DNA of 29,054 nt from a virus: IMG/VR virus record IMGVR_UViG_3300028553_000127, positions 1-29,054 of that record; one strand, written 5' to 3'. The position numbers were made by a program, and so were the translations under genes. Below are positions 683-25,304 of this stretch, piece after piece (within the stretch, counting starts at the first letter, position 1; each line of letters opens with the position of its first letter). Below the pieces are notes generated by a model. It had not been told where the DNA came from. It saw nothing but the letters and a program-made list of their open reading frames with translations, and made no database searches.

Positions 683-690
683 TATTTATT
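683..690 (-). promoter_or_regulatory. Late-promoter-like box AATAAATA for gene 252-677
   Basis: AATAAATA differs by one base from the T4 late consensus TATAAATA read by gp55. It ends 5 bases before the ATG at 677, so the predicted transcript would begin at or next to the start codon. Confidence 0.5.
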
Positions 691-695
691 ATAAA

Positions 696-703
696 GGTAA
701 ATA
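696..703 (+). promoter_or_regulatory. Late-promoter-like box GGTAAATA for gene 712-1071
   Basis: GGTAAATA ends 8 bases before the ATG at 712. Together with the minus-strand box at 683-690 it makes a 34-base divergent promoter region. Confidence 0.4.
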
Positions 704-711
704 AAATATAT

Positions 712-1071
712 ATGTTTAATGAAGATACCCAAATGATTTATAATCGCTGGGTTAGTGGCATAGCCAGTCGAGACCTTAAGGGTCAAACACTTACAGTTGA
801 TGATTTAATTCAAAAATACTCCCCCCAAGGAAGCACACTGGCTCCTAAAAATCTTCCTTATCCTCTGGACAAGATTTTTGAAAGTTTGGCGGATAATTTT
901 GTAAAATTAAGCAACAGCAAGATGTTGTGTGAAATGAGCAAGAATAACCCTCTTATTGGCAACAAGAAAGAGAAATTAGAACAATTGGAACAGGTTATCG
1001 ACAAAATCAATCAGGCACAAAAGATACTTGAAGAAACTGTAAACCCTCTAAATAAGATTTTAGAGGGTTAA
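712..1071 (+). CDS. Hypothetical protein, 119 aa
   Basis: Not recognised. The frame is open from a TTG at 661, but that codon lies inside the start region of the divergent gene and precedes the promoter-like box, so the ATG at 712 (M-F-N-E-D-T) is the better start. The protein is soluble and mostly helical, with a C-terminal coiled-coil-like stretch (roughly residues 75-112, rich in Lys, Glu, Leu and Gln). The last codons (L-N-K-I-L-E-G) overlap a hairpin that holds a late-promoter-like box for the next gene. That gene starts 1 base after this stop. The cluster 712-2541 is one closely packed set of plus-strand genes. Confidence 0.75.
   Translation: MFNEDTQMIYNRWVSGIASRDLKGQTLTVDDLIQKYSPQGSTLAPKNLPYPLDKIFESLADNFVKLSNSKMLCEMSKNNPLIGNKKEKLEQLEQVIDKINQAQKILEETVNPLNKILEG
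1042..1069 (+). promoter_or_regulatory. Hairpin with embedded late-promoter box and sequestered ribosome-binding site for gene 1073
   Basis: An 11-bp perfect stem (1042-1052 with 1059-1069) closes a 6-base loop. TCTAAATA (1047-1054) spans the 5' arm and loop. The 3' arm holds GAGGG (1063-1067), a Shine-Dalgarno site 5 bases before the ATG at 1073. Read-through RNA would bury the site. RNA started from the box (near 1060) would lack the 5' arm and expose it. Confidence 0.55.
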
Positions 1072-1072
1072 A

Positions 1073-1489
1073 ATGCTATTCAGAACAATATTATTTATAA
1101 GTCTTCCTTTGACCAGTATTGGAATTTTATATTCCCTTAATGTAAGCAATTTTTGGACATATTTTTTCACATCTTGTTTCACAGTGGGACTGCAATATGC
1201 CATGGATTTTGCTTTTCATAAGTTTGCCATAGTAAGATATGGTTTGCGTATCAAAGAAACCAATTTGCAGATTGAAAAAGAGTATAATAAACGAGGAGTG
1301 GAACTGACATGTCCTTGTGCAGAGAAGAGCAAATGCTTTGTGCCAATTGATCTGAATCAAGGAACCAGCTATAAATGCCTTCAATGTAACAAACAAATAT
1401 CCGTTTATGTCAAATTGGGTACCGCACTTGAAACTGAACCAGTGGTGGTGCAATCTTTGGAAGCTCTGCCCATGAATCTGAATGAGTAA
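1073..1489 (+). CDS. Membrane-anchored zinc-ribbon protein, 138 aa
   Basis: Two hydrophobic segments (about residues 5-22 and 27-49) predict an N-terminal hairpin in the membrane. They are followed by a soluble domain with Cys80, Cys82, Cys88, Cys102 and Cys105 in the pattern C-P-C...C...C-L-Q-C, consistent with a zinc ribbon. The C-terminal part (V-Y-V-K-L-G-T-A-L-E-T-E-P) resembles small membrane/zinc-ribbon proteins I recall from other marine T4-like phages, none with a known job. A Shine-Dalgarno site (GAGGG, 1063-1067) lies within a hairpin described separately. The stop overlaps the start of the next gene (ATGAGTAA, 1482-1489), so translation is likely coupled. Function unknown. Confidence 0.75.
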   Translation: MLFRTILFISLPLTSIGILYSLNVSNFWTYFFTSCFTVGLQYAMDFAFHKFAIVRYGLRIKETNLQIEKEYNKRGVELTCPCAEKSKCFVPIDLNQGTSYKCLQCNKQISVYVKLGTALETEPVVVQSLEALPMNLNE

Positions 1490-1919
1490 TTTATTATACC
1501 AAATAGCCAAAAGTGTTAATAGCACAGCAGTTGTGCCTGTTTCCACTGTAAAAAATGAAAATTGGGCACAGGAATTTGACCAGGAACTAAGTGATTTCTT
1601 TGTTAAAAAAGGTCCAGAATATTATAATTTATATAAAATATTTCGAACCAAAAAGAAAAATTTCAACGACAGTGAACGTATTATTTTGGACTTTTTTGAT
1701 GAAATTTTTCAAGAATATAAAAAATTAAGCATAAAAAATCCAGAAGGTATCGACCGAAAAAGTTTTGTGGTGCATAAAATTTATGAATCGGTCAATGCAG
1801 CGTTCAGCATCATGACTGAATTGAAGATAAAGCTTGACGTTCCCCTGCTTTTCTGTATTTTGGCTGCATATGTTCAACAATACATTCACGATCAAAACAC
1901 AAACCGAAAACAACAATAA
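1482..1919 (+). CDS. Hypothetical helical protein, 145 aa
   Basis: Not recognised. The start ATG overlaps the upstream stop by 8 bases, which supports this start and suggests translational coupling. The sequence is mostly helical, with a charged central region (about residues 50-90) and a more hydrophobic C-terminal helix (D-V-P-L-L-F-C-I-L-A-A-Y-V). No catalytic motif is visible. The last 47 bases overlap the beginning of the next gene in another frame. Confidence 0.7.
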   Translation: MSNLLYQIAKSVNSTAVVPVSTVKNENWAQEFDQELSDFFVKKGPEYYNLYKIFRTKKKNFNDSERIILDFFDEIFQEYKKLSIKNPEGIDRKSFVVHKIYESVNAAFSIMTELKIKLDVPLLFCILAAYVQQYIHDQNTNRKQQ

Positions 1920-2541: not shown

Positions 2542-3287
2542 GTTCCATACACTTCATCTTGTCCAGAACCTTCATAATCAAAAACAAATTTATTTACAAC
2601 TGCAGGAGCACTGTTCTGAATTTGGTTCGAACGAGGATTGGTCGGAACATTTCCACTGACAGTTGCACTGAGTGTGCCATAACCAGTGTTGTCCATGACT
2701 TGTTGATTACCCTTTTCATTGGGCAAATTTACTTCTTGTGAATAATCAAATCTCTTCATTTTCAGCAACCATACATAATGTCCGGCCAATGCATTGATTT
2801 TGCTGTTTTCGCTGTCCAATCTTTGCGTTATTTCAAACAATTTTCCATCCCGATCTCCGGGTCTGTCATTTCCATACTCCAGAAGTTTAACAACGTCTCC
2901 ACTTTTTGGTTCTTGATTTTGACCGAAAACACTATAAAAGCTGCTGATGTGTACAAATGCAGTAATATAATCCTGACCATCAAATCCGAATTTATTTAAA
3001 GTAAGATTGTCTTCATCCAGCGTGATGGCCATCACAATCTGGCTAGGGGCGGGCCAGTTTGTGATTGGATCTTCACCATAAATGTTGTCGGCACTCAATG
3101 TGCTATAAGGATTTCTCCAATAATTTATCTTTTGACCATAAAGATCTATCTGTTCTCGCCAATAGTTGCCGATCACATCCCGTTCACATTCATTGTTTTC
3201 TTTGTCAGTAAAACGAAGAACACTGGCTGTGTAATTAAAAGGATACACAGAAACACAACCAGGTCCTAGATACCGATCAACGCTCAT
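2520..3287 (-). CDS. gp14: Neck protein, T4 gp14-like (head completion), 255 aa
   Basis: In T4, gp14 with gp13 closes the filled head and receives the tail. The 255-residue length matches T4 gp14 (256). The order of motifs also matches: an early D-L-Y-G-Q, then a Y-G-E-D-P segment, a K-F-G-F stretch near residue 100, a P-K-S-G-D-V-V-K-L loop, an F-E-I-T strand, and a G-H-Y-V-W-L-L-K-M-K-R-F-D-Y-S-Q-E region. The C-terminal 60 residues are low in complexity. The ATG overlaps the stop of the upstream nucleotidyltransferase gene as ATGA, and it has one of the few clear Shine-Dalgarno sites here (GGAGAG), so it is probably read as the second gene of a two-gene unit. The 3' end overlaps the plus-strand gene ending at 2541. 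Confidence 0.65.
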   Translation of the reverse strand: MSVDRYLGPGCVSVYPFNYTASVLRFTDKENNECERDVIGNYWREQIDLYGQKINYWRNPYSTLSADNIYGEDPITNWPAPSQIVMAITLDEDNLTLNKFGFDGQDYITAFVHISSFYSVFGQNQEPKSGDVVKLLEYGNDRPGDRDGKLFEITQRLDSENSKINALAGHYVWLLKMKRFDYSQEVNLPNEKGNQQVMDNTGYGTLSATVSGNVPTNPRSNQIQNSAPAVVNKFVFDYEGSGQDEVYGTYDVRDS

Positions 3288-4354
3288 TCACTCTCCAATA
3301 CATATATATTATTTTGTTTTCTTATACTTACGGATGAACGACCCAACTTTACGGGCTTTTCACTTAAATTGACATTGTAAAAAGTTGCAATTTGCATGGC
3401 CCGAGGTTCGCTGATTATTCTTCTTCCTTTGCTTTTTTTCAAAACTCCAACTTCAGGAAATGTGTCTGTATTTTGATGCATGAGCGGAACTGTTCGGGAA
3501 TGTTTACGCAATCCAGGATCCCGGATGAAGGGCTTTTCATGACGGGCTCCCCGTTTCTTTTTATCAAACATTTGGGATGTTTGTTTTTTGGTTCCCATCA
3601 AATCACTCACAAAAAGATTAGGAATACCGCTGTTCCATGTTTGTTCTGTGTAAATTTTGTCATAGGTTTCTGATTTCAAATCATTTAGTTTATCCAGATA
3701 TCCTGCATCCCTTAATTTTTTGAAAACAAGATTTTCAATACAAAAATCAAAACCAATTTCACTTTTCATACATTCTCGACGGGATTCACTCAATTTGTTT
3801 TTAATATTTTTTGCTCTTTTTAATATAGATTTTAGAATAGTGTGGCTATTATTTTTGTTTTTTTCTTTAATGAGAAAATCTATTTCTTTTTTATAAAATT
3901 GATATTTTTTATTCACATTTTGTTCATCAATTTCCGGAGGATCATAAACAGGTTGTTTGATCCATTTATTTCTTAATATGCTGTAAATGCTTTTTGTTTT
4001 ATGGGGTTGAATGTACGTATCTTCCACAAAAATTTCCACGGGATGGTTTTTCAGGGTTATATCGTGTTTTAAACGCCATTTGTAAGCTTCGCCATCAAAT
4101 GCCATGAAAACCAATTTATCGTTTTTACTTGCTTTTTTAAAGTCTATGCGCAGATGCAAATCAATATCGCTGTTTTTTGTGTATGTATAATTGGTTATGC
4201 TTCCAGTAATTTGAATATCTTCCAAAGGAGCATTTGTTTGCAAATTGCTGTAAAAATCCAAAGCCATATCCACAAGATTGTTTCTGACTTTTTTATCAAA
4301 TCCTTTGTCAGTCCAAAACTTTGAATTTAGATCTTTATGATATTCAAACGCCAT
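3284..4354 (-). CDS. Nucleotidyltransferase-fold protein, 356 aa
   Basis: Residues 49-68 carry the signature of polymerase-beta-type nucleotidyltransferases: G51-S52, then S62-D63-I-D65-L-H. A candidate third acidic residue is E107 (in H-P-V-E-I-F). Such enzymes transfer a nucleotide onto protein, RNA or small molecules, and the substrate here cannot be told. After the catalytic domain comes a Lys/Asn-rich helical region (about 130-215) and a basic C-terminal part that may be a separate domain. The gene starts just after an intrinsic terminator, has its own ACTAAATA box 5 bases before the ATG, and overlaps gp14 by 4 bases. Its place beside a neck gene is odd for an enzyme and could mean a virion-borne or packaging-linked role. 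Confidence 0.65.
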   Translation of the reverse strand: MAFEYHKDLNSKFWTDKGFDKKVRNNLVDMALDFYSNLQTNAPLEDIQITGSITNYTYTKNSDIDLHLRIDFKKASKNDKLVFMAFDGEAYKWRLKHDITLKNHPVEIFVEDTYIQPHKTKSIYSILRNKWIKQPVYDPPEIDEQNVNKKYQFYKKEIDFLIKEKNKNNSHTILKSILKRAKNIKNKLSESRRECMKSEIGFDFCIENLVFKKLRDAGYLDKLNDLKSETYDKIYTEQTWNSGIPNLFVSDLMGTKKQTSQMFDKKKRGARHEKPFIRDPGLRKHSRTVPLMHQNTDTFPEVGVLKKSKGRRIISEPRAMQIATFYNVNLSEKPVKLGRSSVSIRKQNNIYVLESE

Positions 4355-4359
4355 ATAGT

Positions 4360-4367
4360 TATTTAGT
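4360..4367 (-). promoter_or_regulatory. Late-promoter-like box ACTAAATA for gene 3284-4354
   Basis: ACTAAATA ends 5 bases before the ATG at 4354 and lies directly after the T-run of the terminator that ends the preceding unit, so it can restart transcription at that point. Confidence 0.5.
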
Positions 4368-4368
4368 C

Positions 4369-4404
4369 AAAAAAAAACCCCCGTTGATTAGACGGGGGTT
4401 TTTT
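4369..4404 (-). terminator. Intrinsic terminator (bidirectional hairpin)
   Basis: A 7-bp GC-rich stem (4378-4384 with 4392-4398, CCCCCGT/ACGGGGG) closes a 7-base loop and is flanked by nine A on one side and six T on the other, so it reads as a rho-independent terminator on both strands. It follows the minus-strand gene 4419-5033. It is the clearest GC-rich terminator in the window. Confidence 0.85.
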
Positions 4405-4418
4405 ATTATATATTTTTA

Positions 4419-5033
4419 TCAGTTGGCTTGGAACAGGTCTTGATCACCTTTTCCACCACCTTTGATCACTGAGGAAACGACGTTGGCTTTTCCTTTTGTG
4501 CTTGTGGGTGCACCACCTCTGACTCCAGATCCAACAAGAGCATGGCCCCGTTCGCCTTCGGTTCCAACCTTGTCAGTTACTTTGGAATCACCACCCTTGC
4601 CGTTCTTGGCAAGGCTGGTTACTGTGCTGGCAACTTTGTTGCTGCCAGAAGAAACTTTTGATAGTTCTTGACCTTTTTTAGCATTAACAAGAGCATGACC
4701 GAGATCTTCAGCTTCGATCTCTTCAGTGGCCATTTCTCCATCTTCATCTTCGCTGTCATCAGTTTCTTCACCATCTTCATCTGAAGATGACATTTCATAG
4801 TCTTCGTCAGAAGCAGATTCATCACCACCGACATCATCGGGGATCAAATCAAGGCTTTGAAGCTTTTGCAAAAGTTCAATTGCTTTGGCGAGATGCTCTT
4901 TAGGAGTCAGCTCTGTTTCTTCACTAGTGGCTGCCGGGGCGACATCGGCGGTGCCGGGTTGAGCGTCAGTGATACCAAGTTCAACGTCGTCCTCGGACAT
5001 CACAGCTTCATATAGTTTGTCGAAGTTACTCAT
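4419..5033 (-). CDS. Acidic protein, candidate internal head or prohead-core protein, 204 aa
   Basis: The middle (about residues 65-105) is extremely rich in Asp, Glu and Ser, as in phage scaffold or core proteins. The C-terminal half is Gly/Lys/Ser-rich and holds the motif G-H-A-L-V twice. The N-terminus M-S-N-F-D-K-L-Y-E resembles the short capsid-targeting peptides of T4 internal proteins, and L-Y-E fits the (L/I)-x-E site cut by the T4 prohead protease gp21. This is inference from pattern only. The gene is followed by a strong terminator. An AATAAATA box ends 6 bases before the ATG. Similar low-complexity composition could also occur in an unrelated non-structural protein. Confidence 0.6.
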   Translation of the reverse strand: MSNFDKLYEAVMSEDDVELGITDAQPGTADVAPAATSEETELTPKEHLAKAIELLQKLQSLDLIPDDVGGDESASDEDYEMSSSDEDGEETDDSEDEDGEMATEEIEAEDLGHALVNAKKGQELSKVSSGSNKVASTVTSLAKNGKGGDSKVTDKVGTEGERGHALVGSGVRGGAPTSTKGKANVVSSVIKGGGKGDQDLFQAN

Positions 5034-5038
5034 ATAGA

Positions 5039-5644
5039 TTATTTATTGTTATCCTTTCTATTTTTTGTATTTTTATTTACAAAACTAAAAAATTCTTCAA
5101 GTGCTTCGGTATGACCATTGACTGCAGCCACAGTCAACAGATTCACGAAGTTTCTTTTGCCCCATATTGTCTTATATTCACTAAGACGTGTAAAAGCTTC
5201 ATGCTTATCATCTTTTACAAGTTCATTTATGATCAAAGTGACATTTTTTGTGTTAATTACGCTTTCGTTTGCACTACTGAGGTTTTCTGGTTCAAAATAG
5301 TTGTCTTTTTTAAATTTTTTATTTTTAGCATCAATAGGTTCAGCCAATTGTTCAGTATCAGGACCGCTGTCCTTATGAGCAAAATCTTTAAGTTTGGGTT
5401 CGGAAACAGTTTTCTTATCTTTAACCAATTCAAAAGCTTGCACTCCACCTTTTCCTGGTTTTGTGCCGAATTTGGCTTTAGCATCAGTTGTTTTCTTGCT
5501 TTTCTTTTCTAAAACAAGTTCATCTTGTTGATGTGCAGCATTTTCCAGAAGCATTTTATGATAAACTGCTCCAATGTCCAATAATGTGTTTGCGTTACTT
5601 TTAGGCATACCGTATTTCTTAATATATTTACTCTTTTGGTTCAT
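5039..5644 (-). CDS. Hypothetical basic protein, 201 aa
   Basis: Not recognised. The protein is Lys-rich and largely disordered in the middle (about residues 45-125), with a helical C-terminal part (about 130-195, N-E-L-V-K-D-D-K-H...F-V-N-L-L-T-V-A-A-V-N-G-H). It has no membrane segment or catalytic motif. An M-L-L-E-N site near residue 34 fits the (L/I)-x-E rule for prohead-protease cutting, which would suit a head protein, but this short motif is weak evidence. The gene diverges from gp17 with a 20-base gap that carries a perfect T4-type late promoter directed at this gene. Confidence 0.7.
   Translation of the reverse strand: MNQKSKYIKKYGMPKSNANTLLDIGAVYHKMLLENAAHQQDELVLEKKSKKTTDAKAKFGTKPGKGGVQAFELVKDKKTVSEPKLKDFAHKDSGPDTEQLAEPIDAKNKKFKKDNYFEPENLSSANESVINTKNVTLIINELVKDDKHEAFTRLSEYKTIWGKRNFVNLLTVAAVNGHTEALEEFFSFVNKNTKNRKDNNK
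5040..5047 (-). promoter_or_regulatory. Late-promoter-like box AATAAATA for gene 4419-5033
   Basis: AATAAATA ends 6 bases before the ATG at 5033. It overlaps the last codons of the upstream gene (stop at 5039-5041), and no Shine-Dalgarno site is present. Confidence 0.5.
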
Positions 5645-5652
5645 ACGTTAAG

Positions 5653-5660
5653 TATTTATA
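5653..5660 (-). promoter_or_regulatory. Perfect T4-type late promoter TATAAATA for gene 5039-5644
   Basis: On the minus strand the box reads TATAAATA exactly and ends 8 bases before the ATG at 5644. It sits in a small inverted repeat (AAGTAT-TT-ATACTT, 5650-5663) between two divergent genes. Confidence 0.6.
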
Positions 5661-7329: not shown

Positions 7330-7336
7330 TTAAATA
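7329..7336 (+). promoter_or_regulatory. Late-promoter-like box ATTAAATA for gene 7342-7905
   Basis: ATTAAATA begins on the last base of the gp17 stop codon and ends 5 bases before the ATG at 7342; there is no Shine-Dalgarno site. Confidence 0.4.
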
Positions 7337-7932: not shown

Positions 7933-7940
7933 AATAAATA
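7933..7940 (+). promoter_or_regulatory. Late-promoter-like box AATAAATA for the tail sheath gene
   Basis: AATAAATA ends 6 bases before the ATG at 7947. There is no Shine-Dalgarno site, although tail sheath should be made in large amounts. Confidence 0.5.
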
Positions 7941-10345: not shown

Positions 10346-10387
10346 AAAATAACTTGCCAATACTATAAATATTGGTAAGTTATTTTT
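10346..10387 (+). terminator. Long hairpin plus T-run after gp18, with a late promoter in its loop
   Basis: A 17-bp stem (10346-10362 with 10370-10386, one G-U pair) closes a 7-base loop and runs into a T-run directly before the ATG at 10388. It looks like an intrinsic terminator for the sheath transcript, but the stem is mostly A/T, so strength is uncertain. A perfect TATAAATA (10364-10371) occupies the loop, as described separately. Confidence 0.6.
10364..10371 (+). promoter_or_regulatory. Perfect T4-type late promoter TATAAATA for the homing endonuclease
   Basis: The box lies in the hairpin loop. Initiation about six bases downstream (near 10377) would yield an mRNA lacking the 5' arm, with an 11-base leader and no Shine-Dalgarno site; GGTAAG at 10374-10379 would be partly excluded. 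Confidence 0.55.
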
Positions 10388-12169
10388 ATGCACATAAAAG
10401 ATTATATAAAAAATAATCTGTTTACAAAAACAGGTAAAATCAATACCGCAATAATACGAAGAGAAACGTTCTTAAAGGGTAAAACGCATCAAGATATCAT
10501 TGAAAATACCCCAAACGTCCAAGGAACACTATCAGAACGCATCTATTGCATTGTAAATGATCTAGAAACTCCTCCAAAATGCGAGGGATGTCTTCATACT
10601 CCCCTCCGTTTCAAAACATTTCAAACAGGATATGAAAGATTTTGCAGTAACAAATGCGCCCGAAAGATAATAACGTGGAAAAGCTCCAGTTCTGTTAAAA
10701 AAGAAAAATCCACCCGTGAGATAACTGAATTGTTGGAATGTTGGCAGGATAAAACCTATACGCATGTGGAAGAATCTCTCCAAAAGAAGTGGATAGAGGA
10801 AAGAATTGGACGGAAATCCGCCACCTACATCTATTCCAATGATTATAGGGAAAACAAAGATATGCTGTGCAGTATTTTGACACGAACAGACTATCTCAAG
10901 GTCAATTCCCCAATCAATTGGAGTGAAAGATTTTATCATATTCTCAATAATCTAAGTGAACCAGTTGCCAACAAGTATTATCCAGAAGAATTAGCTTTTT
11001 ACGAGAATATAAATGTAGGGTATCGACACAAATACACAAAAAACAACAACATAACAAACCAACCACCCATCAGAGGATGGAACGATCATTATATAAAGGT
11101 TGATGAATATCTAAAACATCTAAATTTTCAAGTAGAATGTATAGATGATCTTAAAAATTTGAATAAGCAAAAAATAAAAATATGTTGTTTAAGATGTAAG
11201 AATACAGAAATTAAAGACCTTAGTGATGGCAAATGGCAGAGTGTGTTTTGTCACACCTGTTACGGGGATCCCAATAGCAGCCGTCAAGAAAAAGAAATAT
11301 CCGAATATTTGCGAACAATTTATACTGGGGAAATTGTTGAAAATTATATTTTAGAAGGAAAAGAATTGGACATTTTTTTGCCAGATAAAAATATTGGATT
11401 TGAATATAATGGTTTGATTTGGCATTCATTTGGGTCATGTTTTCCTTGTAACATACAGGAGGAAAATAATAAAAGATATCATCTTTTAGAAAAAAAAGAT
11501 TTTTTTAAACAACATGGAATACGAGTATATCACATTTTTTCCAATGAATGGCAGAATAAAAATACACAAGAAATATGGAAGTCTGTAATTAATAACATTT
11601 TGAAAACTTCCAATAAAATTTTTGCCAGAAAATGCCAAATACGATTAGTAGATCAAAAAACAAAAAATGATTTCATGTTTTATAATCATATTCAAGGAAT
11701 TGATCATTCTAACATTTGTTTAGGTCTTTATCACGACGATAATCTTGTTTCTGTTATGACATTCAATAAACCCCGATTCACTAAAAATGAAAAATTGAAT
11801 TATGAATTGATTCGCTTTTGTAATAAAAAAGATACAACAGTCATCGGAGGTGCAAGTAAATTGCTTAATTATTTTGAAAATAATTACAAACCAAAAGGAA
11901 TTATTTCATATGCTGATTTGAGACGTAGTGATGGAAATTTATATTTTAAATTAGGATTTAAAATGTCACATCAATCTGATCCAAATTACTTTTATTTTAA
12001 AGGTAATCGTATAATTCGAAGATATGCAGCACAAAAGAAAAAACTTAAAAAACTTCTAAAAGAAGGATTTGATGAAAATTTTTCAGAATCTCAAAATATG
12101 TTCAAAAACGATTATCGTAGGGTTTGGGACTGTGGAAACATGGTATTTTTGAAATATTATGATAAATAA
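10388..12169 (+). CDS. Free-standing homing endonuclease with zinc fingers and Vsr-like (EDxHD) nuclease core, 593 aa
   Basis: Homing endonucleases cut a matching gene in a rival genome so that repair copies the element across. The N-terminal part has a zinc-finger pattern, C65-x2-C68...C86-x3-C90, in the context G-Y-E-R-F-C-S-N-K-C that is common in phage homing enzymes. A second set is C267-x2-C270...C288-x2-C291. The nuclease core follows: E-L-D328-I-F-L-P, then F-E339-Y-N-G-L-I-W-H346, which resembles the Vsr-fold EDxHD family (I-Bth0305I type). The C-terminal third (about 400-593) probably binds DNA. It stands between the sheath gene and the tube gene, which adjoin in T4. No intron is visible around it, so it is free-standing. 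Its promoter lies in the loop of the upstream hairpin. Confidence 0.85.
   Translation: MHIKDYIKNNLFTKTGKINTAIIRRETFLKGKTHQDIIENTPNVQGTLSERIYCIVNDLETPPKCEGCLHTPLRFKTFQTGYERFCSNKCARKIITWKSSSSVKKEKSTREITELLECWQDKTYTHVEESLQKKWIEERIGRKSATYIYSNDYRENKDMLCSILTRTDYLKVNSPINWSERFYHILNNLSEPVANKYYPEELAFYENINVGYRHKYTKNNNITNQPPIRGWNDHYIKVDEYLKHLNFQVECIDDLKNLNKQKIKICCLRCKNTEIKDLSDGKWQSVFCHTCYGDPNSSRQEKEISEYLRTIYTGEIVENYILEGKELDIFLPDKNIGFEYNGLIWHSFGSCFPCNIQEENNKRYHLLEKKDFFKQHGIRVYHIFSNEWQNKNTQEIWKSVINNILKTSNKIFARKCQIRLVDQKTKNDFMFYNHIQGIDHSNICLGLYHDDNLVSVMTFNKPRFTKNEKLNYELIRFCNKKDTTVIGGASKLLNYFENNYKPKGIISYADLRRSDGNLYFKLGFKMSHQSDPNYFYFKGNRIIRRYAAQKKKLKKLLKEGFDENFSESQNMFKNDYRRVWDCGNMVFLKYYDK
12161..12168 (+). 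promoter_or_regulatory. Late-promoter-like box GATAAATA for gene 12174-12587
   Basis: GATAAATA overlaps the final codons of the endonuclease gene and ends 5 bases before ATG 12174, which favours that start over the in-frame ATG at 12159. Confidence 0.5.
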
Positions 12170-12173: not shown

Positions 12174-12587
12174 ATGCCAACCATAAAAGTTGTTAAATTA
12201 TACCAGGAACAACCAGTTTATGATCCAACAATTGTCATAAAATTAGCTCTTGAATGTTCAGCACAATTAAAACTTTTTCATTGGCAAACTTTCAGTTTTG
12301 CTCAACACGAAGCTTTTGATAAGATAGGAAAAGATTTGGCTAAAGCTTTTGATAGTTTGATAGAAACTTTACTTGGGCGTTATAGGCAATATGAATATAA
12401 ATCTTTGAATTTTGAAATTCTACCCCATTCTAATGAAAATGTTCTTTCAAAAATAAACCAGTATTTACAAATATTAACAGTTCAACCTTGTTCATTACTA
12501 GATCCTAAAGATTCAGATGCACAAAACATTGTGGAAGAGATTGTTGCAGATTTGAATAAACTTAAATATTTGTTGACTTTAGAGTAA
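12174..12587 (+). CDS. Small Dps/ferritin-like protein (resembles DUF5856), 137 aa
   Basis: The stretch from residue 32 (L-K-L-F-H-W-Q-T...Q-H-E-A-F-D) resembles a family of unknown function found in phages and algal viruses, and also the first helices of Dps mini-ferritins. H45, D60 and E64 have exactly the spacing (15, then 4) of the Dps iron-site residues His63, Asp78 and Glu82 of E. coli; H36 corresponds to His51 with a loop three residues shorter. If the similarity is real the protein could bind iron or fold as a four-helix bundle; no activity is shown. ATG 12174 is chosen over 12159 because the promoter-like box ends 5 bases before it. Like the endonuclease, it separates gp18 from gp19. 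Confidence 0.65.
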   Translation: MPTIKVVKLYQEQPVYDPTIVIKLALECSAQLKLFHWQTFSFAQHEAFDKIGKDLAKAFDSLIETLLGRYRQYEYKSLNFEILPHSNENVLSKINQYLQILTVQPCSLLDPKDSDAQNIVEEIVADLNKLKYLLTLE

Positions 12588-12614: not shown

Positions 12615-12622
12615 AATAAATA
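12615..12622 (+). promoter_or_regulatory. Late-promoter-like box AATAAATA for the tail tube gene
   Basis: AATAAATA ends 5 bases before the ATG at 12628, with no Shine-Dalgarno site, again in front of a gene that should be highly expressed. Confidence 0.5.
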
Positions 12623-13227: not shown

Positions 13228-13255
13228 TTTCCTTCTAAATAATATTAGAAGGAGA
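13228..13255 (+). promoter_or_regulatory. Hairpin with embedded late-promoter box and sequestered ribosome-binding site for the gp54-like gene
   Basis: The stem pairs 13228-13238 with 13245-13255 (11 pairs, one G-U) around a 6-base loop. TCTAAATA (13234-13241) spans the 5' arm and loop. The 3' arm contains GAAGGAG (13248-13254), the strongest Shine-Dalgarno site in the window, 8 bases before the ATT at 13263. A transcript beginning near 13247 would free it. Confidence 0.55.
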
Positions 13256-13262
13256 TAGAACA

Positions 13263-14393
13263 ATTAACGATCCAATCACAGATGCAATTCGGGGATTAAG
13301 CAATAATCTACGAGGGTTAACAACAGGCGCAAATCCTCCTTTTGCCCCACAAATTACAAACGCATACGGATTCAATATCCCTGGTGTACCTTTAATAAGT
13401 CCACAAGAATATTTTCTTGCTCAAATGGAAAGTTGGTTTTCAACTGTTCCTTTGAATAGTCAGTGGGTAATTTTAATAGACAATTATCCTAGATCTATAT
13501 CAAGTGAAATTATTCAAGGTTTAGAATATACAGACGGATCCAAACAAGGTTGGAACATAACTCGCCCTGCTCAAATACTAACCAGTCATTTTTATCAAAA
13601 GGTAGTCGGATGTATTTTTGCTCAAGGAGTCAATCTTCCTCAAGATGATTATGAAGTGGAAAGTGCACCCATAGACAATAACAGGGGATTTATACCTGGA
13701 ATTCTTGCTTCAAAACGAACTGCTTATACTAATAAGTTTTTAAAAATAGAATTTCTTGAAACAAATACTTCATTTTTAGATATGGTTATACGTCCCTGGG
13801 TAATTTTGGCAAGCCATTACGGATATGTGGCTCGTCCTGGTGGTACAGGTGATTTGCGTCATATAAAATGTAATCTTACAATTATGCAATACACTCGTTC
13901 TTATCAAAAAGTTAGTCAAATTCCCAGAAAAGTTTGGACTTTCTATAATTGTGTTCCTTATTTTGTGGATAATCAAAGCATAACATACAGTCCAGATACA
14001 GAATATGAGAAATATTCTACACAATGGATTTATAGTAATTACACTGTACATTCTAATTTGTATTTGCCGTTACCTGATATTATCAATCGAATCAGTAATG
14101 GTGTAATTCCAAACATTTCTCCTTTCCAAAATGGAAACAACTTTACCAACCAGAATTTACCCAAGACAGGATTGCCCGGTGCTTTCGGATGCTGGGTTGC
14201 TCGAGAGGTTTATGGTCAGGATAATCCAAAATGGCTCATGTTCCGTGAATGGATGCTCACCAAATCACCAAAATGGTTCATGCATTTGTACATTGCATTT
14301 GGTGCATCGTTTGCTAAGATGATTCGAAATCACACTTTTATTAAGAATTTTATAAGAAAATGGATGGATTCAAAAATAAAAGAGATTTTTTAA
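13263..14393 (+). CDS. gp54: Baseplate-tail tube initiator (T4 gp54-like), probably starting at ATT, 376 aa
   Basis: The frame has no ATG, GTG, TTG or CTG before ATG 13425, yet it is open from 13239 and reads as sensible protein. A start at ATT 13263, 8 bases after a strong GAAGGAG, gives 376 residues (T4 gp54 has 320). Starting at 13425 would leave a 203-base gap, the longest in the window. Tube-fold features follow the gp54 pattern: a Q-W-V-I-L-I-D strand, V-N-L-P-Q-D-D-Y, F-L-K-I-E-F-L-E-T-N-T-S-F-L-D, R-P-W-V-I-L-A-S-H, and W-T-F-Y-N-C-V-P with a following V-D-N-Q-S-I-T-Y. In T4, gp54 sits on the hub and starts tube growth. An annotated start at 13425 would lose 54 residues. Confidence 0.65.
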   Translation: MNDPITDAIRGLSNNLRGLTTGANPPFAPQITNAYGFNIPGVPLISPQEYFLAQMESWFSTVPLNSQWVILIDNYPRSISSEIIQGLEYTDGSKQGWNITRPAQILTSHFYQKVVGCIFAQGVNLPQDDYEVESAPIDNNRGFIPGILASKRTAYTNKFLKIEFLETNTSFLDMVIRPWVILASHYGYVARPGGTGDLRHIKCNLTIMQYTRSYQKVSQIPRKVWTFYNCVPYFVDNQSITYSPDTEYEKYSTQWIYSNYTVHSNLYLPLPDIINRISNGVIPNISPFQNGNNFTNQNLPKTGLPGAFGCWVAREVYGQDNPKWLMFREWMLTKSPKWFMHLYIAFGASFAKMIRNHTFIKNFIRKWMDSKIKEIF

Positions 14394-16066: not shown

Positions 16067-16074
16067 GATAAATA
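16067..16074 (+). promoter_or_regulatory. Late-promoter-like box GATAAATA for the tape measure gene
   Basis: GATAAATA ends 6 bases before the ATG at 16081. It is the 3' half of a weak A/T hairpin (16059-16074), and no Shine-Dalgarno site follows. Confidence 0.5.
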
Positions 16075-16080: not shown

Positions 16081-19074
16081 ATGACCAGTGAGGAGAGCAT
16101 CCTATTTTTAGGCAAAACCGCACAAAAGCTTGACCAGCTAGCTTCTGCCTTTTTGGAGGTGAAGCTCAGACAAGAGGAAGCATCTGAAAAGGATCGTAAA
16201 GCCAAGGAAAAAAATCCATCAGGAAAAGATGGCAAAGAAATAGCTCGGGATGGAAAGGGAAGATTTCAAAGAAAAGAAATAAAAATTTCTGAACCTTCTC
16301 AAAATTTAAAAATGTTGGCAGAAATTGAAAAAGAAGCCAAAAAGCAAAATAAGCTAAATCTACAAGAAAAAGCACCTAAAGTTGCTGAAAATTTAACATC
16401 GACTGAAAGAAAACGATGGGAAAACATAGGTACTATTCTGGCAACAGCTTTCAAAAAAATCCTTGAAGGTCGTCAAAAAGTAACACGGGAAAAAGGAATT
16501 GGAAAAGAGATTCAAGATCTGGAATTTATTGAAAATGAAAAATTAGAAAAGAAAAAAACAAGTTTCTTTAAAAAATTATTGGGTGCTTTAGCGTTTTTAT
16601 CTGGATTTGTTTTGGGAGTTATCACAGAAACCATAAAACAATTAAGAAAAATTTTTTCTGCTATAAAAGCTTTGTTAAACCCAGAAATATTTTTGAATCT
16701 TTTGCGTCAATTGAAAAATTCTAAATTTGGAAAATATGTTTTGCAGCTTTTTGAATTGTTAAAAACTAATTTTTTAAAACTAATTGAAGGTGTTAAAAAT
16801 TCAAAAACATTTCAATTTTTTTCAAAAATTTTTGAAAATCTTAAAACAAAATTTTTGGAGCTATTAAAAATTATAAGGGAATCTAAAGTTGGAAAATTTG
16901 TAGAAGGTATTTTCAAACAGCTAAAAACAAATTTTTTAAACTTAATAGAAAATATTAAAAATTCTAAAGTTTCTAAAGTAGTTACGCAATTTTTTGAATC
17001 TTTAAAAACAAATATTTTAAAAGCTATAGAAACTGCAAAAAACTCAAATTTAGTTCAAATAGTAAAAAATCTATTCCAAAATATTAAAACTAGTTTGTCT
17101 GGAATATCCAAAGCATTAAGTGAATCTAAATTAGGTAGCTTTGTAATTGGTATATTCCAAAATATTAAAACTAGTTTGTCTGGAATATCCAAAGCATTAA
17201 GTGAATCTAAATTAGGTAGCTTTGTAATTGGTATATTTGAAGGAATAAGTACAAAACTTGGTGGCTTAGTTAAAAGTGTTCGGGAAATAAAAATAACCAA
17301 CGTAATTCCTCAGTTGTTTTCAATAATTCAATCTAAATTTTTGGGTATTTTCAAATCAATTGGTGAATTTTTCTCCAGCTTTGGAAGAATTCTTAACATC
17401 ATAGAAAAGGGAAAAGGACCTCTTCTTTTCATGGAAAAACTATTGAAACCTATACCAGAATTTTTAAAATTTATAGTAGAAGGTCCTTTAAAAATAATAT
17501 TTAAAGGTTTGCAGCTAGGTTTAAAAGTAGGTAGACTTTTTGGAAAATTGCTCATACCTTTAGCAGTTGTTTTGGAGCTTTTTTCGGGGTTATTTAAAGC
17601 ATTTTCAGATGAAAAATTATCAAATAAATCTTTCATACAAAAATTAATTACTGGTGTTGTGGCTGGTATTGGAGGATTTTTAGATATATTTTCGATTTTT
17701 GGTTTGGAATTTTTTAACTTTGATGAAATACGAGATCGAATAGACAAAATATTCAAACCATTTCAAGAAGGTAAATGGATACAAGGAATTGGCCAAATAC
17801 TCAATCAAACTGTTTCATTTTTTCTTGCAATTCCAGGAAAAATACTTGGATGGGTAGTTGGTTGGTTTAGTAAAGATTTAGGTAAAAAAGTAACAGATTA
17901 TTTTAGAAATTTTAATCTTTTTGAAACTATAAAAGACATAATAATGTTTGTTCCAAACATGTTTGGAAATGTTTTGAGTAAAATTAAAAACTTTTTTAGT
18001 GGCGAAGGTGACGGATTTATATCCAAAATTTTTGAAAATATAAACAAAATTTTTGAATATTCCCCTATAGGTCTTTTAATGAAGGGAGCCAAAAAACTTA
18101 TAAGTATGTTTGGAAACGAATTTAATATGGATAGTATTGTTAATGGTATCAAAACCTTCTTCAAGTACACTCCAGTAGGAATGCTTTTAGAAAGTATCGA
18201 TTATATTAAGGAAGCTTTTAGTAATTTTAGTTTGGATTCTGTTATTAATGGTATCAAAACCTTCTTCAAGTACACTCCAGTAGGAATGCTTTTAGAAAGT
18301 ATCGATTATATTAAGGAAGCTTTTAGTAATTTTAGTATAGATGGTATTCTTAATAGTATTAAACAATTTTTCAATTATACCCCAATAGGAATGTTAATTA
18401 ATAATTCAGAAAATATTAAAAGTTTCTTTGGCGACACTTTCGGTAAAATTAAAAACTTTTTTACTTTCGTAAAAGATAAATTCGATAGCATTTTCGGTTT
18501 TATAGGTGATCTGCTATCAAAAATTTTCAATTTTATAAAAGACAAAGCCAAAAATATTCCGTTAATTGGAAAACTTTTTGAAAATACGGAAGATAAACAA
18601 GAGACGTATGTAGAAAATAAAAAAGAAAAAATACCTTTAGTACAAAATCCTTTTGAAATGTCAGAAGAACAACCAAGTCAATTCATACAATCGTTTCAAT
18701 CACCAGAAAACCAAGATTTTCAATCACCAGAAAACCAAGATTTTCAAACACAATCCATGTTTCAGGTTCCTGAAATAAATCGACTAAATGAAACCAGCAA
18801 ATTATTCTCCATGGAAAAGAAATCATCTTCACCTGAAGGTTTCGGAGATGTTAAAACAGGAATGGAAAATTTAAACAAAAATTCATCTGTAAATTCAAAG
18901 ATAGCAGTTGATCAATTGCGTGAAATAAAAGAATTAAACAAGAAAATGGAACAACTTGTTGCACAACTAACATCAAGTAGAGCCATGGTTGTTAATAATG
19001 TGAGAAACAGTTCTGTTAATTCATTCCTTCAACCCTCCACAATAAATAGTTTCAGAAGCTCATTCAGAGAATAA
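16081..19074 (+). CDS. gp29: Tail tape measure protein (gp29 role), 997 aa
   Basis: Tape measure proteins fill the tail lumen and set tail length. This one has a charged N-terminal region (1-160), a first hydrophobic segment (about 162-185), eight tandem 27-residue repeats (208-423), two more hydrophobic stretches (roughly 490-560), four 35-residue repeats (about 652-791), and a disordered Gln/Ser-rich tail with a doubled octapeptide F-Q-S-P-E-N-Q-D (residues 872-887). At about 1.5 angstroms per helical residue it would span at most about 150 nm, much longer than T4's 590-residue gp29. Some repeats are identical at the DNA level, a sign of recent in-frame duplication. The next gene is gp48-like, as after gene 29 in T4. 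Sequence similarity to gp29 itself is not obvious; the call rests on length, repeats and position. Confidence 0.8.
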   Translation: MTSEESILFLGKTAQKLDQLASAFLEVKLRQEEASEKDRKAKEKNPSGKDGKEIARDGKGRFQRKEIKISEPSQNLKMLAEIEKEAKKQNKLNLQEKAPKVAENLTSTERKRWENIGTILATAFKKILEGRQKVTREKGIGKEIQDLEFIENEKLEKKKTSFFKKLLGALAFLSGFVLGVITETIKQLRKIFSAIKALLNPEIFLNLLRQLKNSKFGKYVLQLFELLKTNFLKLIEGVKNSKTFQFFSKIFENLKTKFLELLKIIRESKVGKFVEGIFKQLKTNFLNLIENIKNSKVSKVVTQFFESLKTNILKAIETAKNSNLVQIVKNLFQNIKTSLSGISKALSESKLGSFVIGIFQNIKTSLSGISKALSESKLGSFVIGIFEGISTKLGGLVKSVREIKITNVIPQLFSIIQSKFLGIFKSIGEFFSSFGRILNIIEKGKGPLLFMEKLLKPIPEFLKFIVEGPLKIIFKGLQLGLKVGRLFGKLLIPLAVVLELFSGLFKAFSDEKLSNKSFIQKLITGVVAGIGGFLDIFSIFGLEFFNFDEIRDRIDKIFKPFQEGKWIQGIGQILNQTVSFFLAIPGKILGWVVGWFSKDLGKKVTDYFRNFNLFETIKDIIMFVPNMFGNVLSKIKNFFSGEGDGFISKIFENINKIFEYSPIGLLMKGAKKLISMFGNEFNMDSIVNGIKTFFKYTPVGMLLESIDYIKEAFSNFSLDSVINGIKTFFKYTPVGMLLESIDYIKEAFSNFSIDGILNSIKQFFNYTPIGMLINNSENIKSFFGDTFGKIKNFFTFVKDKFDSIFGFIGDLLSKIFNFIKDKAKNIPLIGKLFENTEDKQETYVENKKEKIPLVQNPFEMSEEQPSQFIQSFQSPENQDFQSPENQDFQTQSMFQVPEINRLNETSKLFSMEKKSSSPEGFGDVKTGMENLNKNSSVNSKIAVDQLREIKELNKKMEQLVAQLTSSRAMVVNNVRNSSVNSFLQPSTINSFRSSFRE
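16702..17349 (+). repeat. Eight tandem 27-residue (81-base) repeats in the tape measure gene
   Basis: Units start at 16702, 16783, 16864, 16945, 17026, 17107, 17188 and 17269. The consensus has a first hydrophobic helix, (N/E)-S-K, then a second helix with F near position 17 and (L/I)-K-T near 20-22. Units six and seven are nearly identical in DNA: 17072-17156 repeats exactly at 17153-17237. Confidence 0.85.
18034..18453 (+). repeat. Four tandem 35-residue (105-base) repeats in the tape measure gene
   Basis: Units start at about 18034, 18139, 18244 and 18349 and share (Y)-(T/S)-P-(V/I)-G-(M/L)-L and a later I-K-(E/S)-x-F. The central pair is almost identical: 18140-18231 repeats exactly at 18245-18336 (92 bases). 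Confidence 0.85.
18694..18741 (+). repeat. 24-base direct repeat, two copies, in the tape measure gene
   Basis: Copies at 18694-18717 and 18718-18741 are identical and encode F-Q-S-P-E-N-Q-D twice in the disordered C-terminal tail. It is a third in-frame duplication in the same gene. Confidence 0.85.
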
Positions 19075-22385: not shown

Positions 22386-23245
22386 ACAATATAAAAACCA
22401 TAGATCCAGAAATGGTTTCTTTAAATCTTTTCTTTAAAAAGGATTTTTACAAATCAGCATCAAATTATCTTGATGTTATTGGAAATTTTCAAAATGAATT
22501 GGATGTTTCAATCAATTGGCAAAAAACATATATGGCAAATGATCCAATTACCTCAAAAACTAATTTTTTTAAAAATCTGGAAAAAGAAGGTTTTGCAAAA
22601 TTAAAAACTGATTTTGTGGTTTTTTGGTTGGATCAATACAAAACATCTTTGACCGAAGTACAGGATAAATTAAAATTTGAAATTGGTGGAAATGGTGTTT
22701 ATTTCAGAAATACTTCTGATTGCGTAGGTTTACTAACAAGAATGACCAATTACGCAGATTCTTCTACAGAGTTGCTTTCAGATCGTGATATTAAAAACCT
22801 ACCCACTCCAGTTTTGTATGGATCCACATTAGATAGTAAAGTCAGTCCAAATGCAAAAGTTGTTAATGCATCCTTGTCAAAGTCTACAAACACTTTGTTT
22901 CGGTATTCTTGTTTTAATATACAAGAAAAAATATCGAACAACACTCTTGCACACGGCCAAAATTTAATTCCAGATTATAATCATTATGAAAGAATGATGA
23001 ATGCAGTTAATAATTTAACTCAAAAAATACGCCAGGAATATAAAGACTTTTATAGAGTTCTAGAATTTTATGCATCTTATAATGCATCAGATCCTCAAAG
23101 TAATATTCAGGTGGTTCCGCCCACAGTTATTACAACTCTAATTGAAGGTAATCCTCAATATCAAACACAATTGAGATCAAGAGCAACTGATATTTTAACT
23201 TCGTTTACCAATCAAAGAGCTTTAGATGTTACTCCGATTTCTTAA
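22382..23245 (+). CDS. Hypothetical protein in the hub cluster, 287 aa
   Basis: Not recognised. The start overlaps the hub-gene stop (ATGA) and has an AGAAGG Shine-Dalgarno site just upstream, so it is co-translated with the hub. The sequence is soluble, with a helical first 100 residues, a Ser/Thr-rich middle (about 120-180, D-R-D-I-K-N-L-P-T-P-V-L-Y-G) and a helical C-terminal part. The context implies a baseplate or tail role, but nothing in the sequence shows which. Its last 17 bases overlap the convergent small terminase gene. Confidence 0.65.
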   Translation: MNNIKTIDPEMVSLNLFFKKDFYKSASNYLDVIGNFQNELDVSINWQKTYMANDPITSKTNFFKNLEKEGFAKLKTDFVVFWLDQYKTSLTEVQDKLKFEIGGNGVYFRNTSDCVGLLTRMTNYADSSTELLSDRDIKNLPTPVLYGSTLDSKVSPNAKVVNASLSKSTNTLFRYSCFNIQEKISNNTLAHGQNLIPDYNHYERMMNAVNNLTQKIRQEYKDFYRVLEFYASYNASDPQSNIQVVPPTVITTLIEGNPQYQTQLRSRATDILTSFTNQRALDVTPIS

Positions 23246-23696
23246 TATTTGAATCTATTGTAACAGATTCTATAGACACAGAAGATTCCATAAGTTTCTT
23301 CAGAATATCTTCCCGAGTAAACGTAACCCGATGTTCTGATTCTGTATTTTTAAGTTCTTTTTTGGATTCGATATCCATGATTTTAATCTCTTTGGCTGTT
23401 TTATTTTTCTGTTCCGCCAGATTTATTTTATTTAAAGTATCTATAGCAGAAGTACTTGCTTTAACCAATTCAGAAAAAGCTACTATTTCTTTGCTTTCTG
23501 GGCTGTGGGATATATAGTCCTTCATGGCCAATATGAGATTATTTGTTTCCCGTATTAATCTTGCAGATTGTTGTATAACAAATTCTTCAACTTCTTCCTT
23601 TTTAAGTTTTTTATCTTCAACCACTGCAGGACTAGCCAATGCCTGTACTTCATGCAATTGGTCTAAAAGACTCTTGACTTCTATTTTTTGATCCAT
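23229..23696 (-). CDS. gp16: Terminase small subunit, T4 gp16-like, 155 aa
   Basis: In T4 the small subunit rings the DNA and regulates gp17. The central helical region (residues 40-95) matches the gp16 pattern: R-L-I-x6-L-x9-S-P-x3-E-I-V-A-F-S-E-L-V-K-A-x4-I-D-T-L-x-K-I, comparable to the conserved helix pair of cyanophage and T4 gp16. The length (155) is near that of T4 (164), and the C-terminus has a D-I-L-K-K-L-M-E segment like gp16 family ends. It is a single minus-strand gene in the baseplate cluster, diverging from gp44 by 23 bases, far from gp17. Alternative: an unrelated coiled-coil protein with similar helix spacing. Confidence 0.5.
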   Translation of the reverse strand: MDQKIEVKSLLDQLHEVQALASPAVVEDKKLKKEEVEEFVIQQSARLIRETNNLILAMKDYISHSPESKEIVAFSELVKASTSAIDTLNKINLAEQKNKTAKEIKIMDIESKKELKNTESEHRVTFTREDILKKLMESSVSIESVTIDSNIKKSE

Positions 23697-23704
23697 ATCA
23701 TATA

Positions 23705-23712
23705 TATTTAGG
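23705..23712 (-). promoter_or_regulatory. Late-promoter-like box CCTAAATA for the gp16-like gene
   Basis: CCTAAATA ends 8 bases before the ATG at 23696, in a 23-base region shared with the divergent gp44 gene. Confidence 0.4.
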
Positions 23713-23719
23713 TTAATAA

Positions 23720-24655
23720 ATGACTATTGCAAACAATCTATGGGTTGAAAAGTATCGTCCAGCATGTTTGGATGATATTATTTTGGATGAAAAAACAAAA
23801 GACTTTGTAAAAAAATGTCTAGATAAAAAAACTATTACCCACCTTTTGCTGCACGGAAAACAAGGAATGGGTAAAACATCACTTGCAAAAATCATAGTTA
23901 AAGAACTTGATTGTGACCATCTTTATATCAATGCATCCGATACACGAGGTATAGATACTGTTCGAGATGAAATCAAAAATTTTGTTCAGCTTATGCCAAG
24001 TAACGGAAGCATCCAGGTAGTTATTCTTGATGAGTTTGATGGTTTTACACCAGATGCTATGCGGGCATTGCGAAATATGCTGGAAGAATATTCAGAAACA
24101 AACCGTTTTATTTTTACATGTAATGACATTAATCGTATTATCGAACCAATACGCAGTCGGGTTTATGAAATAAACATAACAAATCCTCCTATCAAAAAGT
24201 GTGTGGAAAGATGTGTCTTTATATTAAAAAATGAAAAGATAGCTTTAAACGAAGAAAATAAAAATATAATTTCCAAAAAAGTTAAAACATTTTATCCAGA
24301 TATACGCAAAATAATATTTGAACTTCAAACTTCATTAGATCTTTCCATCAATTTAAACGATAGTATTGAAAATGTTGATTCGTTTTCAGCTAATCTTTTA
24401 AACAAAATCAAATCCAGTGATTTTGTTGAACTAAGAAAATATATAATTGAAAATGAAAAGAATTTTGATTCTAATTATTATTCCGTTTTAAGAAAAATGT
24501 GTGAAATTATTTTCTATTCAGATATAGGTATAGAAAAGATAAAAAAATGCTTTGTGGAATTGTCAGAAGCAATTTATCGTAGCAAAAATACCTCTGATCA
24601 GGAAATTAATTTCAGTTCCTGTATGTGTAAATTACAGGATATAATTAAGACTTAG
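23720..24655 (+). CDS. gp44: Sliding-clamp loader large subunit (T4 gp44-like), 311 aa
   Basis: gp44 with gp62 opens the gp45 clamp and places it on DNA for the polymerase. The AAA+ motifs are complete: N-terminal W-V-E-K-Y-R-P, Walker A G-K-Q-G-M-G-K-T (46-53), Walker B V-V-I-L-D-E (100-105), sensor 1 F-I-F-T-C-N-D (130-136) and arginine-finger S-R (146-147). The length matches T4 gp44 (319). A weak AGG lies 8 bases before the ATG and there is no late-type box, fitting an early or middle gene. It stands alone among baseplate genes, unlike T4, where it lies with 45 and 62. The TAG stop overlaps the convergent next gene by 11 bases. Confidence 0.93.
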   Translation: MTIANNLWVEKYRPACLDDIILDEKTKDFVKKCLDKKTITHLLLHGKQGMGKTSLAKIIVKELDCDHLYINASDTRGIDTVRDEIKNFVQLMPSNGSIQVVILDEFDGFTPDAMRALRNMLEEYSETNRFIFTCNDINRIIEPIRSRVYEINITNPPIKKCVERCVFILKNEKIALNEENKNIISKKVKTFYPDIRKIIFELQTSLDLSINLNDSIENVDSFSANLLNKIKSSDFVELRKYIIENEKNFDSNYYSVLRKMCEIIFYSDIGIEKIKKCFVELSEAIYRSKNTSDQEINFSSCMCKLQDIIKT

Positions 24656-25253
24656 GAAGATAAGCGTAGGTATAAGAAGCCACGCTAGGATTCTTGTTAC
24701 CTTCAGCTGGACTGGAAGGTATCTTGATATTGGTGTTCTTTAACTCAACTTCAGAAGCAGTATTCTTTCCATTACCACGATCAGTATTTGAAGTTTGATA
24801 AGCAGGATTTGCATATTGAGGGTCGTTGCTTTTTTCTTCTTCAATTTCTTTTGGTTTGATATTGCTATTATTGGGTCTCTTTAACCCCTCTGGAACTTCG
24901 GGTAGATTTGGATAATAATCCTTATACTCAAGAATATCAGCAGGCAAGGTTATAAAATCTTTATAACACCCCGGGGCCAGTTCCAGGGTAATATCACAAT
25001 AAAAATCATCAGCATTGTTTGCTTCAACAAATCCTGGTTGAGTGCTTGGGCGGTTCGTTTTTACAGCACTTATTCTCATTAAAAGACCACTTTCAGCGAA
25101 CTGTTTTGCTTTTTCAAGAATGGCAGATCCTTGTTTTTTAAACCAATCACTCTTTAATGCATTATCTTTTAATTTGACAATATCTCCAGTCAAAAAACCA
25201 CCCCGTGTATATCTGCTAATAAAAGATTCATATAAGCTTGTAAATTTTCTCAT
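24645..25253 (-). CDS. Conserved T4-like phage protein of unknown function, candidate virion protein, 202 aa
   Basis: The motif Y-T-R-G-G-F-L-T-G-D (residues 15-24), the region A-P-G-C-Y-K-D-F-I-T-L-P-A-D, and the P-N-L-P-E-V-P...R-P...I-K-P segment match a protein family I recall as common in marine T4-like phages and without known function. The N-terminus M-R-K-F-T-S-L-Y-E has the same F-x-x-L-Y-E pattern as the gene at 4419, compatible with a capsid-targeting peptide cut after L-Y-E by a gp21-type protease. The last 60 residues are Asn/Ser-rich and probably disordered. A GGTAAATA box ends 6 bases before the ATG. The function is unknown; the virion link is inferred. Confidence 0.65.
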   Translation of the reverse strand: MRKFTSLYESFISRYTRGGFLTGDIVKLKDNALKSDWFKKQGSAILEKAKQFAESGLLMRISAVKTNRPSTQPGFVEANNADDFYCDITLELAPGCYKDFITLPADILEYKDYYPNLPEVPEGLKRPNNSNIKPKEIEEEKSNDPQYANPAYQTSNTDRGNGKNTASEVELKNTNIKIPSSPAEGNKNPSVASYTYAYLPKS

Positions 25254-25259
25254 TTAGAT

Positions 25260-25267
25260 TATTTACC
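25260..25267 (-). promoter_or_regulatory. Late-promoter-like box GGTAAATA for gene 24645-25253
   Basis: GGTAAATA ends 6 bases before the ATG at 25253. It is back to back with the box for gp25 across the 51-base divergent gap. Confidence 0.45.
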
Positions 25268-25286
25268 CTGAAAAACAAACTTTTAT

Positions 25287-25294
25287 AATAAATA
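25287..25294 (+). promoter_or_regulatory. Late-promoter-like box AATAAATA for gp25
   Basis: AATAAATA ends 10 bases before the ATG at 25305; an A/T inverted repeat (25292-25306) overlaps the start codon, but it is weak. Confidence 0.45.
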
Positions 25295-25304
25295 TTTTAA
25301 AAAT

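Follow-up and report, generated by a model that had tools for sequence, protein, structure and literature searches.

The stretch of DNA analyzed here, referred to as the window, is the 29,054-base uncultivated virus record IMGVR_UViG_3300028553_000127, positions 1 to 29,054, and the elements in question are the TAAATA boxes that stand just upstream of many of its genes. The window is of the T4 type: genes for head closure, the gp17 terminase, the tail sheath, proteins with the tail-tube fold, gp25, gp6 and the clamp loader gp44 were recognized. A megablast search of the window against 50,697 isolated phage records gave no near match, and its gp17 and sheath proteins share about 33-42% identity at most with those of isolated phages. 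The boxes were pointed out in an initial annotation, which offered two readings: a leaderless late-gene expression system, or an A/U-rich translation signal that mimics the promoter.

Placement of the boxes in the window and across the clade

The boxes lie at the places named in the initial annotation, 15 genes in all (Table 1). We define the gap as the number of bases between the end of the TAAATA box and the start codon; as annotated, it is five or six at nine genes and eight at three more. Two of the remaining boxes stand further off (gaps of 10 and 16), and the fifteenth stands before a gene with its first ATG at 13425 and a coding frame conserved from near 13263. TAAATA as such is not enriched in the window, where 40 copies were found and 53 are expected from dinucleotide shuffles. 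That its placement is not due to chance is confirmed: gaps of 4-8 are present at 12 of 29 gene starts versus 0 of 988 control ATGs (Fisher p = 2e-20). When each gene's own upstream region was shuffled, box genes averaged 0.54 and never exceeded 4, versus the 12 observed, and other hexamers of the same letters produce no such peak, except those that overlap the box. Within the window, 10 of the 15 genes leading a transcription unit have a box, compared with 2 of the 14 operon-internal genes.

Relatives were collected with a gp17 search, which returned 80 of them at identities between 52% and 100%; deeper relatives and outgroups came from a second one. Gene starts come from a codon-based caller that is blind to upstream signals, and some are mis-called. 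Because raw counts are inflated by related sequences, we rely on distinct contexts, on the tree and on the comparison gene by gene. In the clade, a large set of uncultivated aquatic T4-like viruses, the gap peaks at exactly 5: of 3,179 distinct contexts, 348 have an ATG start there and 85 a GTG start. Comparing the box-to-ATG distance with that of T4-like phages, as the initial annotation had suggested, sets this peak against a broad spread in the outgroups: the distance is mostly about 18-30 bases in the T4-like outgroups, and mostly 14-40 when T4, cyanophages and other T4-likes are taken together. In the gp17 tree, a quick tree with some long branches, one branch with 100% support in the Shimodaira-Hasegawa-like approximate likelihood ratio test (SH-aLRT) separates two sets of rows, one of 45 (39 near-type) and one of 35 (32 far-type). 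Some of the exceptions have TAAGTA at gap 5, so that the spacing is kept while one letter changes; this applies to several late genes in the group of L159, L160, L161 and L166. The trait is not strictly confined to the window's clade, since gap 5 also occurs at a few genes of pelagiphage/methylophage-type T4-likes (L129, L134, L197, L200, L202). These are otherwise far-type with a few late boxes at gap 5, some of which precede one and the same orthologue (MxxHYEKYKDT).

When each gene is compared separately, orthologues with less than 75% identity have retained the box; besides the fractions listed in Table 1, the figure is 4/4 for each of two further boxed genes of the window. Genes that lack a box in the window have one in 0/18, 0/6, 5/50 and 0/4 of their orthologues. 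Counter-cases are gp17 (34/65) and the gene at 15275 (17/24), which are often boxed in relatives and unboxed in the window. Relatives that retain the A/T richness and lose the box, a case raised in the initial annotation, were not found.

Evidence for the proposed late promoters and leaderless messages

Counted from the start of the transcript, the T4 late box occupies positions -13 to -6 (PMC1524935), and T4 late promoters have no -35 element (PMC2988020). The TAAATA boxes have A or T at positions -2 and -1 of the hexamer, matching the octamer TATAAATA or a close variant, and no conserved position for a -35 element was seen upstream of 263 distinct gap-5 boxes, whereas genes with a TATAAT box show TTGA. 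They are specific for late genes, being present at 26 of 54 late versus 1 of 51 early genes. Of 287 distinct box genes, 26 have an intrinsic terminator immediately before them, versus 1 of 490 same-strand genes without a box; the T-run of the terminator ends most often three bases before TAAATA. At 4360-4398(-) of the window the order is CCCCCGTCTAATCAACGGGGGTTTTTTTTT-gac-TAAATA-actat-ATG, where the 14 bases between terminator and start codon accommodate no more than the box and five bases. Large relatives encode homologs of gp55, which matched the PHROG late sigma family (E 1e-26 to 1e-29) in 6 of 11 records. Those at L105:12635-13108(+), L097:18900-19505(-) and L124:17322-17774(-) are without the C-terminal clamp-binding tail that is present in gp55 of T4, HTVC008M and Melnitz; the coupling to the clamp may thus differ. 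A single-sequence search of the relatives for gp45 and gp33 found neither.

Given the T4 geometry of the box, a gap of 5 places position +1 on the start codon. Split by start codon, the gap-5 peak comprises 214 ATG starts versus a background of 9 and 56 GTG starts versus 0.4, and there is no such peak for TTG, CTG or ATT. The GTG starts number 56 at gap 5, 10 at gap 6, 2 at gap 7 and 0 at gap 8. This restriction to ATG and GTG equals the experimental rule of leaderless initiation in mycobacteria, under which an RNA beginning with ATG or GTG is both required and enough, and one beginning with TTG is not (PMC4633059). The scarcity of Shine-Dalgarno sites reported in the initial annotation holds for the window's group as well: box genes show no excess (4.5% versus 3.5% in shuffled sequence for the mid relatives, 6.8% versus 4.3% for the near group), whereas in the near group an excess is present at genes inside operons (52% versus 18%). 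In a second promoter class, the genes have a TATAAT box preceded by TTGA at the canonical distance; here the most frequent gap is 6, with ATG as well as with GTG starts. The -10 box of sigma-70 promoters ends at -7, and the gp55 box ends at -6. The difference of one base between the two peaks fits these ends, so that +1 coincides with the start codon in both classes. T4 has neither the gap-5 peak of TAAATA nor the gap-6 peak of TATAAT. A separate observation concerns L101-L109 (relative G003), where the motif AGGAACTRT, a possible middle-promoter element, stands about 8 bases upstream of the -10 box in a subset of the TATAAT gap-6 promoters.

Taken together, the boxes are most probably T4-type late promoters, placed so that transcription starts at or near the start codon and yields leaderless late messenger RNAs (mRNAs). 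This first reading of the initial annotation is a prediction from sequence that the comparative evidence strongly supports. According to this model, a late sigma factor of the gp55 family on host RNA polymerase would read NATAAATA, and the first transcribed base would coincide with the first base of the start codon or lie no more than a few bases away. Since such mRNAs have no leader, ribosomes would have to recognize an AUG or GUG at the 5' terminus; genes inside operons would be translated from the same mRNA by coupling or from Shine-Dalgarno sites. Many non-late genes would use the host-type TTGA...TATAAT promoters, one base further off, with +1 again on the start codon. Not all genes are leaderless; those inside operons depart from the pattern, as do at least two genes with a leader.

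Three other explanations were weighed. Because TAAATA resembles a -10 element and the tie between gp55 and the boxes of the clade is a predicted one, the mRNAs might be leaderless with the box read by the host primary sigma factor. We consider this unlikely: genes with TAAATA have no -35 element and those with TATAAT have one, the former are late genes, the box is the late consensus of T4 and S-PM2, and gp55 is present in relatives. Somewhat less probable again are late promoters whose start is displaced, or whose RNA is processed, such that the working mRNAs carry a short leader. Gaps of 6-8 do occur beside 5 and would leave 1-3 leader bases if the T4 geometry is strict, but the modes lie at exactly 5 (TAAATA) and 6 (TATAAT), GTG starts are nearly all at gap 5, and there is no space for a Shine-Dalgarno site. 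The second reading of the initial annotation takes the box for an A/U-rich signal of translation initiation in a normal leader, as in non-Shine-Dalgarno hosts, that resembles a late promoter only by its letters. It would account for box genes without Shine-Dalgarno sites and for the A/T-rich start regions. However, the box is absent from most operon-internal genes and from early genes, terminators directly upstream leave no space for a leader coming from further up, host-type promoters in the same genomes show a parallel gap of 6 together with a -35 element, and in the leadered exception described below (13229-13265) the box precedes the ribosome site instead of coinciding with it. A box that is rare in operon-internal and early genes, stands right after terminators and forms one of two promoter classes disfavors a translation signal, which is highly improbable and the weakest candidate of all.

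Several points tell against leaderless late promoters. The start sites are predictions from sequence; the RNA 5' ends, the action of gp55 on the boxes and the translation of leaderless RNAs are what we infer. The late start could lie a few bases away in this system, which would make leaders 0-3 bases long; gaps of 6-8 are frequent. Roughly half of the homologs of late genes are without a box at gap 4-9, partly owing to mis-called starts. The window is a fragment without gp55, whose locus it does not cover. In the relatives, the clamp candidate beside gp32 is a tentative one (hhalign E 3.5e-4, probability 37%), and the gp33 candidate is one by position only. Furthermore, the translation of leaderless mRNAs presumes a host capable of it. 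In its broadest form, the proposal is that a deep clade of uncultivated T4-like phages runs both early (TTGA/TATAAT) and late (gp55-type) expression largely on leaderless mRNAs, needing hosts or phage-altered ribosomes that initiate mainly at a 5'-terminal AUG or GUG; for this, we regard the chances as evenly balanced.

Leadered exceptions, hairpins and feature coordinates

The box at 13236-13241 belongs to a gene with a leader. Its true start lies near 13263, as indicated by the coding frame conserved upstream of the first ATG at 13425, and this tail-tube-like gene, which ends at 14393, likely starts with ATT at 13263-13265. The corresponding codon in the window's own group is ATT or ATC, preceded by a strong Shine-Dalgarno site (L003, L012, L014, L016 and L017; ATC in L012), while mid relatives start the orthologue with GTG exactly five bases past TAAATA. 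ATT starts led by a Shine-Dalgarno site function in mycobacteria (PMC4633059). The stem around the box shows paired changes, being CCTTCTAA/TTAGAAGG, CCTCTAA/TTAGAGG or CCCCTAA/TTAGGGG depending on the relative; it is broken in L013. In RNA that reads through from upstream, the hairpin would hide the Shine-Dalgarno site, and RNA begun at +1 would be without the 5' arm. Such a hairpin is an independent mark of the box as a promoter with its start a few bases downstream.

The same logic is known from T4 gene e, I-TevI and Aeh1 mobE, in which read-through RNA folds over the ribosome site and the RNA from the late promoter is without the 5' arm (PMC3014915). It recurs at 13229-13265 and similarly at 10346-10386, where a hairpin with the octamer in its loop may serve as a terminator or as a translation block for read-through RNA. 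Unlike those cases, the hairpins here are exceptions among leaderless late genes, and one of the starts seems to be ATT.

Table 1. Late boxes, terminator and hairpins of the window. Fractions in the last column give the orthologues below 75% identity that keep the box, unless worded otherwise.
Feature	Position	Strand	Gap	Gene and remarks	Box in orthologues
TAAATA late box	683..688	-	5	ATG of gene 252-677(-)	24/25
TAAATA late box	698..703	+	8	ATG of gene 712-1071(+)	13/18
TAAATA late box	4360..4365	-	5	ATG of gene 3284-4354(-)	10/11
Intrinsic terminator	4369..4398	-		Hairpin CCCCCGTCTAATCAACGGGGG and nine T, after gene 4419-5033(-); ends three bases before the next late box	Terminator-then-box arrangement also in L004, L006, L007, L010, L013, L017
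TAAATA late box	5040..5045	-	6	ATG of gene 4419-5033(-)	11/11
TATAAATA late box	5653..5658	-	8	ATG of gene 5039-5644(-)	
TAAATA late box	7331..7336	+	5	ATG of tail gene 7342-7905(+)	only 22/68
TAAATA late box	7935..7940	+	6	ATG of tail sheath gene 7947-10316(+)	32/44
17-bp hairpin	10346..10386	+	16	TATAAATA (10364-10371) in loop, then T-run; before HNH-type homing endonuclease gene 10388-12169(+), an exception with a leader	
TAAATA late box	12163..12168	+	5	Inside the end of the endonuclease gene; ATG of gene 12174-12587(+)	Kept in all 7 orthologues, five with GTG start
TAAATA late box	12617..12622	+	5	ATG of tail tube gene 12628-13221(+)	39/43
Leadered exception	13229..13265	+		TAAATA 13236-13241 in hairpin; Shine-Dalgarno AAGGAG 13249-13254 in 3' arm	
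TAAATA late box	16069..16074	+	6	ATG of gene 16081-19074(+)	No orthologues found for comparison
TAAATA late box	23705..23710	-	8	ATG of gene 23229-23696(-); divergent clamp-loader gene 23720-24655(+) beside it without box	
TAAATA late box	25260..25265	-	6	ATG of gene 24645-25253(-)	
TAAATA late box	25289..25294	+	10	ATG of gp25-like gene 25305-25778(+)	Gap 5-7 in 4/6 orthologues

The compact order of terminator, TAAATAGTAAT and ATG was also observed at one gene of L181, a far-type T4-like contig. In relative G001, a transfer-messenger RNA (tmRNA) gene is predicted at L093:283-688(-) with an unusually long tag of 33 residues; the prediction may be a mis-read permuted tmRNA or a false match.

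Hosts and known systems

An alignment of gp17 against bacterial genomes, made in search of a host, gave none. A possible membership in the Far-T4 phages, which group with the Rhodothermus phage RM378 in core-gene phylogeny and have gp23 as their usual marker, was looked at through gp17: among the best matches listed for RM378 gp17, all lie outside the window's clade. Initiation factor 3 (IF3) encoded by the phages was looked for and not found. The Bacteroidota promoter is of the TAnnTTTG type. Flavobacteriales, which have been linked in silico with Far-T4-like phages as hosts in the literature, were considered and set aside, the host-type promoters here being TTGA/TATAAT and not of that type. 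A CHASE2/cyclase-like protein of relative G003 was followed as a host clue as well; its relatives lie in Flavobacteriaceae, Pirellulales and Alphaproteobacteria bins. Two Flavobacteriaceae-binned contigs, NZAX01000026.1 (L215) and PAHL01000013.1 (L216), have TAAATAGTAGTATG starts and the appearance of T4-like phage DNA, and look mis-binned or derived from infected cells. Because these two contigs are phage-like, nothing firm about the host follows from this clue.

Textbook accounts of T4 late transcription assume a leader and a Shine-Dalgarno site as a matter of course. If our model is true, a widespread uncultivated branch of the T4 family has fused the promoter with the start codon. Exact protein N-termini would then be predictable from sequence, the ribosome sites missing in annotation would be explained, and there would be a clue to the kind of host. 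The branch would also offer a natural test of how leaderless translation can sustain very high expression of virion proteins.

The proposed promoters of the clade resemble the late promoters of T4, KVP40 and S-PM2 in their octamer, whose position -13 is A or T, in the lack of a -35 element and in A/T-rich sequence downstream, as well as in the position of the boxes upstream of late genes and the presence of gp55 in the genome, here in the relatives' records. They differ in that the box of T4 and cyanophages stands mostly 14-40 bases before the ATG and leaves a leader, whereas here it stands 5-8 bases before it; and, unlike in T4, the gp55 homologs are without the clamp-binding tail. The Far-T4 paper detected no core genes for transcription regulation. 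In Actinobacteria and Deinococcus-Thermus, a -10 element lying some 10-12 bases before the start codon is indicative of leaderless genes (PMC3160421); these, like the mycobacterial ones, are of the cellular sigma-70 type, whereas the main class here has a phage-type late box. According to a secondary source, most middle and late mRNAs of the Thermus phage phiYS40 are leaderless (PMC3594737). In this respect phiYS40 is like the clade described here, but it infects Thermus, and the literature searched does not link its leaderless RNAs with a T4-type gp55 promoter. Neither did this literature yield a report of T4-type late promoters placed for leaderless messages. Leaderless phage mRNAs, as in phiYS40, and T4 late promoters across the family are thus already known separately; what would be new is the union of these two known parts, of which T4 and those of its relatives that have been studied offer no example.

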